Of a DNA stretch of 64,000 bases, positions 34,290 to 37,487 are shown one piece after another. The DNA lies in the NCBI RefSeq assembly GCF_000812875.1, contig NZ_JSYK01000001.1, positions 62,001 through 126,000 on the forward strand, read 5' to 3'. Each line of letters opens with the position of its first letter. The first letter of the stretch is position 1. This DNA is from Kaistella solincola (GTDB lineage: Bacteria; Bacteroidota; Bacteroidia; Flavobacteriales; Weeksellaceae). Under the pieces are notes generated by a model. The model was given only the letters and a program-made list of their open reading frames with translations, was not told where the DNA came from and searched no databases. The translations under genes and the position numbers were made by a program.

Positions 34290-36875
34290 TTATCGCCCTA
34301 TCATCTTTTTAATCGAATTCAGTTTCATCAAGGCTTCAATCGGCGTTAAAGTATTCACATCAATTTTTAGCAGCTCTTCGCGTATATTTTCTAAAACCGG
34401 ATCATCAAGCTGGAAAAATGAAAGCTGCAGACTTTCTTCGGTAATCGCTTTCGCGGAGTTTTTTGATCCGCTTTGTGAACGGCTTTTTTCTAAAGTTTTC
34501 AGCACTTCACTTGCGCGGTTTACCACTTTCGAAGGCATTCCGGCTAATTTCGCCACATGAATCCCGAAACTGTGTTCACTTCCGCCCGGCACCAGTTTCC
34601 GCAGAAAAATAATACTTCCTTTATGCTCCTGAATTGAAACATGGAAATTTTTAATTCTTTCGAAATTCACCGTCATTTCATTCAGTTCGTGGTAATGCGT
34701 AGCAAATAAAGTTTTCGCCTGCGTCGGATGTTGGTGAAGATATTCTGCAATCGCCCAGGCAATGGAAACACCGTCGTATGTGGAAGTTCCGCGCCCAATT
34801 TCATCTAATAAAATCAGGCTTCGTTCCGAAATATTGTTCAGAATATTTGCAGCCTCATTCATTTCCACCATAAAAGTAGATTCGCCTGAAGAAATATTAT
34901 CTGAAGCACCGACACGCGTAAATATCTTATCTAAAATACCAATTTCTGCATGTTTTGCCGGAACAAAACTGCCGATTTGCGCGAGCAGACAAATAATTGC
35001 CGTTTGCCGTAAAATAGCCGATTTTCCCGCCATATTCGGGCCGGTAACCATGATAATCTGCTGTGAATCTTTTGCCAAAAATAAATCGTTTGGGATATAT
35101 TTTTCGCCCAAAGGCAAGGCATTCTCAATGATTGGATGACGCGCTTCTTTCAAATCGATTTCAAATCCGTCATTTAAAACGGGTTTCGTATAACTATCTG
35201 AAACCGCGAGTTCCGATAAACCTACGCCACAATCCAGTTCCGCGATAATCTTGGAATTTTCCTGAATCTGATCGATGTACACCATCACATTTTCGCAAAC
35301 CTGGCGGTAAAGCTCCTGCTCAATTTTCGAAATTTTTTCTTCAGCGCCTAAAATCTGTTCTTCATATTCTTTCAACTCTTCGGTGATGTATCTTTCCGCG
35401 TTAACCAAAGTTTGTTTTCGGATCCAATCGTCGGGAACCTTATCTTTATACGAATTTCGGACTTCAATATAATAACCGAAAACGTTATTAAAGCTGATTT
35501 TAAGACTTGTTATTCCGGTGCGCTTTACCTCGCGGTCGCACATTTCCTCGAGAAAATCTTTTCCTTTGGTTTGAAGCCCGCGCAGGTGATCCAGCTCTTC
35601 AGAAATTCCGGTTTTTATGACATTTCCTTTCGAAATATTTACCGGAAGTTCCTCATTCACATTCTTTTGCAGATATTTAATGAGCTCTTCCAGATTCAGC
35701 AAAGGTGAAACCCAGGCTAAAACTTCATCGTGCGGACGCAGCAGCTCGTTAATTTTGTGAATATTCAGCAAACTTTGCCGCAAATAACCAATTTCTTTGG
35801 GACAGATTTTTTCCGACGCCAGTTTCCCGAGCAAACGGTCCAAATCTGAAATGGATTTTAAAAGTTGAAGGATTTCGTATTTCAGATTTTCTTCTTTATT
35901 GAAAAATTCAACCAAATCTAACCTGCGGTTAATTTCGCTCACCGATTTTAAAGGCAGAATAAGCCGGCGTCTCAGCAATCTTCCGCCCATTGGCGTGCAG
36001 GTTTTATCGATAATATCGAGCAGAGATTTTCCCTGCGGATGGCTTGGGAAAACAATTTCTAAATTCCGCAAGGTAAAATGATCCATCATCAGATAATCAT
36101 CTTTCGGAATGAGTTTTATGGTCGTAATATGCTGTAAAAGAGCGTGGTGCGTATCTTCCACCAAATAAGCGAAAATGGCGCCGGCGGCGATAATTCCCAG
36201 TTTTACATCTTCAATTCCGAAACCTTTTAAGGAATTTGTTTTGAAATGACCGGTTAATTTTTCGTAGGCATAATTGTATTGATAAGCCCAGTCTTCCAGC
36301 TTGAAAGAACTTCGGTTTGCAAGCTGAGTCGGCAGTTCCGTGCGTCTTTGGTAAATAATTTCGCTCGGATCAAAAGTGCCGACAATGTGCAGCAACTGCT
36401 CTAAATTCCCTTCCGAAGCAAGAAATTCTCCCGTTGAAACATCGATCAAAGCCAAACCGTATTTTTCTTTTTCCTTATGAATGGAAAGTAGAAAATTATT
36501 CTTTTTCGAGCTTAAAACCTGCTCGTTGAAAGTTACACCGGGCGTTACGAGCTCGGTGACGCCCCGTTTTACAATTCCTTTTACCGATTTTGGATCTTCG
36601 AGTTGATCACAAATCGCGACACGCAAACCGGCGCGCACCAGTTTCGGTAAATAAGAATCAATTGAATGATGCGGAAAACCCGCGAGTTCGATATGCCCGT
36701 CGCCGTTGGCTCTTTTTGTTAAAACAATTCCTAAAATCTGTGCCGTGCGAATGGCATCTGCACCAAAAGTTTCGTAAAAATCTCCCACGCGAAAAAGCAA
36801 CAGCGCATCCGGATATTTCGCCTTGATGGTGTTGTACTGCGTCATGAGTGGAGTTTCCTTTTTTTCTTTTGCCAC
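34290..36875 (-). CDS. mutS: DNA mismatch repair protein MutS
   Basis: MutS recognises base mismatches and starts methyl-independent or MutL-dependent repair. The 861-residue protein has the mismatch-binding FRVGDFYETFG motif (with the wedge Phe and Glu, about residues 28-38), the connector, lever and clamp domains, and the ATPase. The ATPase has Walker A GPNMAGKSA near residue 610, then DEIGRGTSTYDG and FATHYHEL. The start is a GTG (36873-36875); an ATG ten codons later is possible, but the KEKKETPLM lead is what I expect in this phylum. It is divergent from the trmH-type gene with overlapping promoter boxes. Confidence 0.96.
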   Translation of the reverse strand: MAKEKKETPLMTQYNTIKAKYPDALLLFRVGDFYETFGADAIRTAQILGIVLTKRANGDGHIELAGFPHHSIDSYLPKLVRAGLRVAICDQLEDPKSVKGIVKRGVTELVTPGVTFNEQVLSSKKNNFLLSIHKEKEKYGLALIDVSTGEFLASEGNLEQLLHIVGTFDPSEIIYQRRTELPTQLANRSSFKLEDWAYQYNYAYEKLTGHFKTNSLKGFGIEDVKLGIIAAGAIFAYLVEDTHHALLQHITTIKLIPKDDYLMMDHFTLRNLEIVFPSHPQGKSLLDIIDKTCTPMGGRLLRRRLILPLKSVSEINRRLDLVEFFNKEENLKYEILQLLKSISDLDRLLGKLASEKICPKEIGYLRQSLLNIHKINELLRPHDEVLAWVSPLLNLEELIKYLQKNVNEELPVNISKGNVIKTGISEELDHLRGLQTKGKDFLEEMCDREVKRTGITSLKISFNNVFGYYIEVRNSYKDKVPDDWIRKQTLVNAERYITEELKEYEEQILGAEEKISKIEQELYRQVCENVMVYIDQIQENSKIIAELDCGVGLSELAVSDSYTKPVLNDGFEIDLKEARHPIIENALPLGEKYIPNDLFLAKDSQQIIMVTGPNMAGKSAILRQTAIICLLAQIGSFVPAKHAEIGILDKIFTRVGASDNISSGESTFMVEMNEAANILNNISERSLILLDEIGRGTSTYDGVSIAWAIAEYLHQHPTQAKTLFATHYHELNEMTVNFERIKNFHVSIQEHKGSIIFLRKLVPGGSEHSFGIHVAKLAGMPSKVVNRASEVLKTLEKSRSQSGSKNSAKAITEESLQLSFFQLDDPVLENIREELLKIDVNTLTPIEALMKLNSIKKMIGR

Positions 36876-36925: not shown

Positions 36926-36942
36926 TATTTTTGCCAAAAATA
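36926..36942. promoter_or_regulatory. Overlapping palindromic -7 boxes of the divergent mutS and trmH-type genes
   Basis: The 17-bp perfect palindrome TATTTTTGCCAAAAATA holds TATTTTTG for the plus-strand gene (36926-36933) and the same box on the minus strand for mutS (36935-36942), one base apart. RNA polymerase cannot occupy both at once. Leaders would be about 10 nt for the methyltransferase and about 55 nt for mutS. Confidence 0.6.
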
Positions 36943-36947
36943 CGAAA

Positions 36948-37487
36948 ATGGGCTCCACCAAGAAACTGAAACTGGAAGAATTAGGACGAATAGATGTTGA
37001 AACATTTAAACAGACGAAAAAAACGCCGCTCGTTGTGGTTTTGGACAATGTTCGCAGCATGCATAATGTGGGCGCAATTTTCCGTACGGCAGATGCTTTT
37101 TTGATTGAAAAAGTGGTTTTGTGCGGCATTACACCGCAACCGCCGCATCGCGAAATTCAAAAAGCGGCTTTGGGCGCGACGGAAAGCGTTACCTGGATTT
37201 ACGAAAAAAATGCCGCTGAAGCACTGAATAAATTAAAACAAGAAAACTTCAAAATCATTGGAATTGAGCAAACTTCCAATTCTGAAAATATTGCCGATTT
37301 TGCCGTGAATAATTCCGAAAAATATGCCGTGGTCTTAGGAAATGAAGTGGATGGTTTAAGCGACGAAGCTTTTCCCTTTTATGACAATTTCCTGGAAATT
37401 CCGCAGCTGGGAACTAAACATTCGTTAAATGTTTCGGTGTGTGGCGGAATTGTAATGTGGGAATTTTTTCAGGCTTTAAAGCAGTAA
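36948..37487 (+). CDS. SpoU/TrmH-family RNA 2'-O-methyltransferase
   Basis: This 179-residue SPOUT (trefoil-knot) methyltransferase transfers a methyl group from SAM to a ribose 2'-OH in tRNA or rRNA. The three SpoU motifs are LDNVRSMHNVGAIFRTADAF near residue 35, VLGNEVDGLSDE near 128 and IPQLGTKHSLNVSVCGGI near 152. The N-terminal extension is short, so the target is not obvious (TrmH, TrmL and RlmB-like are all possible). It stands alone and is closed by a bidirectional terminator. Confidence 0.88.
   Translation: MGSTKKLKLEELGRIDVETFKQTKKTPLVVVLDNVRSMHNVGAIFRTADAFLIEKVVLCGITPQPPHREIQKAALGATESVTWIYEKNAAEALNKLKQENFKIIGIEQTSNSENIADFAVNNSEKYAVVLGNEVDGLSDEAFPFYDNFLEIPQLGTKHSLNVSVCGGIVMWEFFQALKQ

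Follow-up and report, generated by a model that had tools for sequence, protein, structure and literature searches.

A conserved pair of opposed -7 boxes between mutS and an RNA methyltransferase gene of Kaistella appears to be a well-preserved bidirectional promoter

The short region between mutS and an RNA methyltransferase gene of Kaistella solincola contained two TAnnTTTG boxes placed tail to tail on opposite strands. It was likely that this site was a compact bidirectional sigma-A promoter serving both genes, a low-cost housekeeping layout rather than a switch. Both boxes were conserved in relatives, and the mutS-side box was lost where mutS had been separated from the site.

The site and its flanking genes

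The window analysed here was a 64-kb stretch of the K. solincola genome. The sequence TATTTTTGCCAAAAATA occurred in it once, at positions 36926-36942 (0 copies expected from 100 shuffles). It was an odd-length inverted repeat consisting of 8-bp arms and one unpaired central base, namely TATTTTTG-C-CAAAAATA, where each arm on its own strand read TATTTTTG. Both arms fitted TAnnTTTG, the -7 box of the Bacteroidota sigma-A, giving one box per strand, tail to tail and 1 bp apart (Table 1). Thus, the perfect 17-bp palindrome with a -7 box on each strand that was described in a first-pass annotation of this DNA was indeed present. The pattern TAnnTTTG-N-CAAAnnTA had a single match in the 2.35-Mb genome, which was the mutS site, but the rarity of this bare 1-bp-spacer pattern alone proved little since the mirrored control pattern gave 5 matches.

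The flanking genes were also as annotated, with mutS on the minus strand and a methyltransferase of the SpoU/TrmH type on the plus strand according to their NCBIfam and Pfam matches, and with an intergenic gap of 72 bp. The methyltransferase scored below every NCBIfam equivalog cut-off (the best were RlmB, 113 vs 160, and TrmH, 79 vs 227), and therefore trmH was used as a family label only. Its closest counterpart was found in K. treverensis (92% identity). Start sites were predicted by placing the box at -12 to -5 (excerpts of PMC9723704) or by counting 4-5 nt from the box to the start (excerpts of PMC6847099). Judging from the box positions, the two starts would be divergent, 8-10 bp apart, and not overlapping.

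Table 1. Coordinates of the boxes, predicted starts and flanking genes within the window
Feature	Position	Strand	Remarks
mutS, 861 aa, GTG start at 36875	34290..36875	-	NCBIfam NF003810 and TIGR01070 above cut-off
Predicted mutS mRNA start	36929..36930	-	Leader about 54-55 nt, predicted from box position
-7 box TATTTTTG, RNA methyltransferase side	36926..36933	+	Fits TAnnTTTG; placement agrees with the methyltransferase start codon
Central base between boxes	36934..36934	.	C or T in the 44 loci with a 1-bp spacer; CC in four loci
-7 box TATTTTTG, mutS side	36935..36942 (read 36942 to 36935)	-	Sole TAnnTTTG on the mutS strand between the genes
Predicted methyltransferase mRNA start	36938..36939	+	Leader about 9-10 nt, predicted from box position
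SpoU/TrmH-family RNA methyltransferase, 179 aa, ATG at 36948	36948..37487	+	Pfam PF00588

Conservation across the family

We searched 163 genomes for the gene pair (sets of 148 and 36, with 21 in common) and examined 99 loci, 6 of which were without mutS on the fragment; duplicates of four genomes were removed before counting. The remaining 64 genomes entered no count, mainly because mutS was kilobases off, on another contig, or not found. The box pair preceded the methyltransferase gene in 48 of the 99 family loci, representing eight genera, with a 1-bp spacer in 44 of them and a 2-bp spacer in four. The left arm of these 48 loci was TAATTTTG (38 loci), TACTTTTG (5), TATTTTTG (3), or TAGTTTTG (2), while the right arm was CAAAAATA in 46 loci and CAAAATTA or CAAAAGTA in one locus each. 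Namely, changes in the left box were confined to its nn positions (TT, AT, CT, or GT), and the right box kept CAAAnnTA at 5, 6, or 7 bp from the ATG and behind a spacer of 1 or 2 bp. Such variation is the behaviour expected of two separate promoter boxes. Moreover, in 47 of the 48 loci the 100 nt next to mutS contained no further TAnnTTTG on the mutS strand.

The palindrome was perfect in only two of the 48 paired loci, those of K. solincola and K. treverensis, which ruled it out as the conserved unit. The first-pass annotation had proposed that two divergent promoters shared one palindromic pair, and had named beforehand a lack of conservation of the palindrome in relatives as evidence against this. 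An importance of the palindrome as such was not supported, since it was imperfect in 46 loci and interrupted by a 2-bp spacer in four, but the box pair was kept in relatives with the same gene order and its mutS-side box was lost when mutS had moved, so that this part of the proposal was retained.

Column conservation was assessed in 29 Kaistella loci that had mutS within 200 bp and were chosen without regard to the motif. All consensus columns of TAnnTTTG and CAAAnnTA were invariant in 29/29, which placed the site above chance. The first n inside the left box was variable, as was the sequence to the left of position -23. The invariant block extended via CGAAA to the methyltransferase ATG, and therefore the leader of the methyltransferase, which is itself constrained, may hold part of the right arm.

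mutS was no more than 100 bp away in 58 loci, and 18 of these lacked the strict pair. The 18 loci were from more distant genera (g22, g28, and g19 by the sampling lists), and in many loci of this type TACTTTTG on the plus strand adjoined mutS, far from the methyltransferase start. Beyond the family, the strict pair was not found at divergent mutS-methyltransferase loci of Hymenobacter (gap of about 190-254 bp) or of some Bacteroidia assemblies (25-30 bp). The divergent neighbourhood itself occurred there, both in Hymenobacter (L161-L164, L166-L168, L171, L172, L175-L178, L180, L181, L183) and in the Bacteroidia assemblies (L160, L165, L173, L174), which suggests that the two genes became neighbours before the box pair arose.

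Loss of the pair where mutS was separated

The 36 Kaistella genomes included loci where mutS had become separated from the site. The box pair was present in 31 of them, namely in 29/29 genomes whose mutS was no more than 200 bp away and in 2/7 of those where it was farther off (Fisher p 5.6e-5, kinship ignored). The mutS-side box was broken in all five pairless genomes (L013, L035, L045, L101, and L102), and the methyltransferase box was kept in four of the five. Additionally, four of these genomes had an own TAnnTTTG of mutS 15-38 nt upstream. The pair was lost in L013 with no mutS box within 100 nt, and between the genes was a 210-aa frame oriented like mutS, with TATTTTTG just ahead on its strand. 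A 249-aa frame was inserted in the mutS direction in L056, where the pair was retained. The pattern at the separated loci, including L013 and L056, would be expected if the right box was the promoter of whatever lay mutS-ward. Exceptions were L018 and L041, where the pair was kept although mutS was 427 and 264 bp away, and L059, which had both the shared and an own box.

The genes intervening between mutS and the methyltransferase differed among the genomes and were repeatedly in the mutS direction (210 aa in L013, 49 in L035, 515 in L101, 518 in L102, and 249 in L056).

A tree-aware test on the methyltransferase gene tree gave agreement in 3-4 of the 4 starred independent pairs and disagreement in none (p 0.125), so the significance of loss with separation rested on few events. 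The altered sequences of L101 and L102 (K. jeonii and K. palustris) were identical, and these two losses may be one event.

Box-pair spacing in the genomes

TAnnTTTG-N(k)-CAAAnnTA was counted in the same 36 Kaistella genomes with the mirrored pattern as a control. There were 218 matches vs 21 at k=2 and 208 vs 18 at k=5, each about tenfold over the mirrored control, which is a description and not a test since the control varied with spacing (18-71) and orthologous sites in 36 relatives were non-independent. Spacings of k=1 (92 vs 71), k=3 (82 vs 39), and k=12 (51 vs 26) were not or only weakly enriched. Given the counts at k=1, where 31 of the 92 matches were the mutS locus itself, we rejected the 1-bp spacing as a general class. 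The k=2 pattern was found in 47 of the 118 genomes of a phylum sample, and the 13 entries from the order of K. solincola had 57 matches vs 26 mirrored ones.

The genomic contexts of these sites were compared in samples from the genus, which covered 18 of 218 sites at k=2, 20 of 51 at k=12, and, with the mutS locus set aside, 20 of 61 at k=1; k=5 was covered in the own genome only. Of the k=2 sites, which came from three relatives, nine were positioned like promoters between two divergent reading frames, eight were one-sided, one was neither, and none was coding. The corresponding k=1 sites were divergent in 5 cases, one-sided in 8, and coding in 7, while those at k=12 were divergent in 3, one-sided in 6, neither in 3, and coding in 8 (k=2 vs k=12, p 0.035; k=2 vs k=1, p 0.18). 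Among the 17 sites of the own genome with k up to 5, the mutS locus excluded, 6 were divergent, 8 one-sided, and 3 coding.

Judging from the spacing counts and site contexts, -7 boxes that abut with a spacer of 2 or 5 bp seem to be a general arrangement of promoters in these genomes, of which the mutS locus would be a member with unusual spacing. By the box-position rule, the starts of k=2 and k=5 pairs are predicted to be about 7 and 4 bp apart. We tentatively suggest, with slightly more doubt than confidence, that Flavobacteriales have a separate class of bidirectional promoters built from abutting -7 boxes set tail to tail, with 2 or 5 bp preferred and with many divergent pairs that include repair genes (mutS; nth with bcp), where mutS-trmH would be a long-standing member whose spacing is not among the favoured ones.

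Several individual sites can be listed here. Own-genome examples of k=2 or k=5 pairs were L185, L188, L198, and L199. At the centre of L220 and L233, endonuclease III-like and peroxiredoxin-like genes (named by eye) shared a 2-bp-spaced pair with 17-19 nt from the box to each ATG, which would make the endonuclease III-like gene another repair gene with a putative shared promoter. The frames flanking L188 were similar in length to those of the L220/L233 pair. A second orthologous 1-bp pair, TAATTTTGCCAAAAATA, was at the centre of L241, L244, and L252 in three Kaistella genomes, between divergent genes of presumed exported proteins, and was identical over its 17 bases to the mutS site found in most relatives.

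Proposed mechanism and alternative explanations

In the proposed mechanism, the left box would give rise to the methyltransferase mRNA with a leader of about 10 nt, and the right box to the mutS mRNA with a leader of about 55 nt. RNA polymerase would be on the site in one orientation at once, as exclusion was sterically likely with starts this close. At ordinary low activity the exclusive occupancy would cost neither gene much, and the arrangement would be held since each gene needs its own box. The start sites, the exclusive binding, and the weak competition are the parts that we infer from the bidirectional-promoter reading.

It was also possible, albeit rather unlikely, that the left box was the sole promoter, that the right arm formed the A-rich leader of the methyltransferase mRNA and the context of its start codon, and that mutS started elsewhere. 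Translation in F. johnsoniae benefits from adenines at -3, -6, -12, and -13 (excerpts of PMC6847099), and A was invariant at -3, -6, and -12 in our alignment, where the block CAAAAATACGAAA ahead of the ATG was nearly invariant beyond the consensus. However, positions -13 (C) and -7 (T) were invariant yet not adenine, and the right box survived a shift of 1-2 bp relative to the ATG (5/48) or changed nn positions (2/48). Moreover, it was broken in the five separated loci though the methyltransferase gene and mostly its box persisted, and 47 of the 48 paired loci had no other TAnnTTTG ahead of mutS.

Two further explanations attribute regulation to the site, and we consider both very improbable. 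The site could be a transcription-factor operator for one or both genes, given its inverted repeat and its place at a divergent promoter, but complementarity of the arms was not maintained, a spacer of either 1 or 2 bp would alter the half-site geometry, and the -7 consensus already fitted both arms. Since neither the dyad symmetry nor the spacing was conserved, the operator was rejected. The other explanation, which was suggested in the first-pass annotation, is that the two promoters exclude each other at the shared site and thereby regulate the balance of mismatch repair vs RNA modification. The predicted start distance would forbid simultaneous binding by a steric argument as in PMC12825309, and the excerpts of that study describe competition at E. 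coli bidirectional promoters when one direction is strongly activated. According to the same excerpts, however, basal activity was too low for competition at 5/5 promoters tested, and the two genes were uncoupled in several Kaistella genomes, so the suggested balance found no support.

Thus, as far as comparison of sequences can tell, the reading as a bidirectional promoter is well supported and a regulatory one is not, and the site seems ordinary in kind and good in preservation. Rather than a new switch, it appears to be a promoter of a known kind that has been well preserved.

As a conserved site with natural mutations, the locus lends itself to the study of bidirectional promoters outside Proteobacteria, with a sigma factor that reads a -7 box, and genomes with separated genes reveal which half each gene needs. 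Changes in the trmH-side promoter of these bacteria could shift mutS expression and hence the mutation rate. Additionally, the genome-wide spacing preference gives a straightforward prediction for the start-site maps that already exist.

Comparison with known promoters

According to the excerpted reports, the sigma-A -7 box of F. psychrophilum is TAnnTTTG at -12 to -5 (PMC9723704), while that of F. johnsoniae is 4-5 nt from the start and was refined to TAHHTTTG, with a weak -33 element (TTG/TTTG) (PMC6847099). Similar to the sigma-A promoters of Bacteroidota in these excerpts and in those of PMC7366714, both boxes of the mutS site fitted the consensus and the left one was at the expected position; unlike them, the site packed two opposed boxes in 17 bp. 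Opposed box pairs were not described in the excerpts of PMC9723704 (no 'divergent', 'bidirectional', or 'palindrom') or PMC7366714 (no 'bidirectional'). Among the open-access papers searched, we found no published report of the mutS-methyltransferase box pair or of other such pairs in Bacteroidota.

Bidirectional promoters, which occur in E. coli and other prokaryotes, have opposed starts a few to about 25 bp apart. Those studied in E. coli by Warman, Grainger and colleagues had starts preferentially 10, 18, or 23 bp apart and mutually exclusive orientations, with no measurable competition at basal activity in the five tested (excerpts of PMC12825309). The mutS site resembles them, as portrayed in these excerpts, in its opposed promoters between divergent genes, in that one polymerase would exclude the other, and in a symmetry of the core promoter only, and its predicted start distance is near their 10-bp class. 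It differs from them in having Bacteroidota -7 boxes rather than -10 hexamers, in starts that are predicted only, and in boxes that abut. Core elements were present on both strands within one short pseudo-symmetric sequence, but a single -10 type element used both ways was not found, as the boxes were 1 bp apart (2 bp in 4/48). Since the boxes were adjacent and shared no base, the site can be considered as the known kind of promoter in an abutting geometry.
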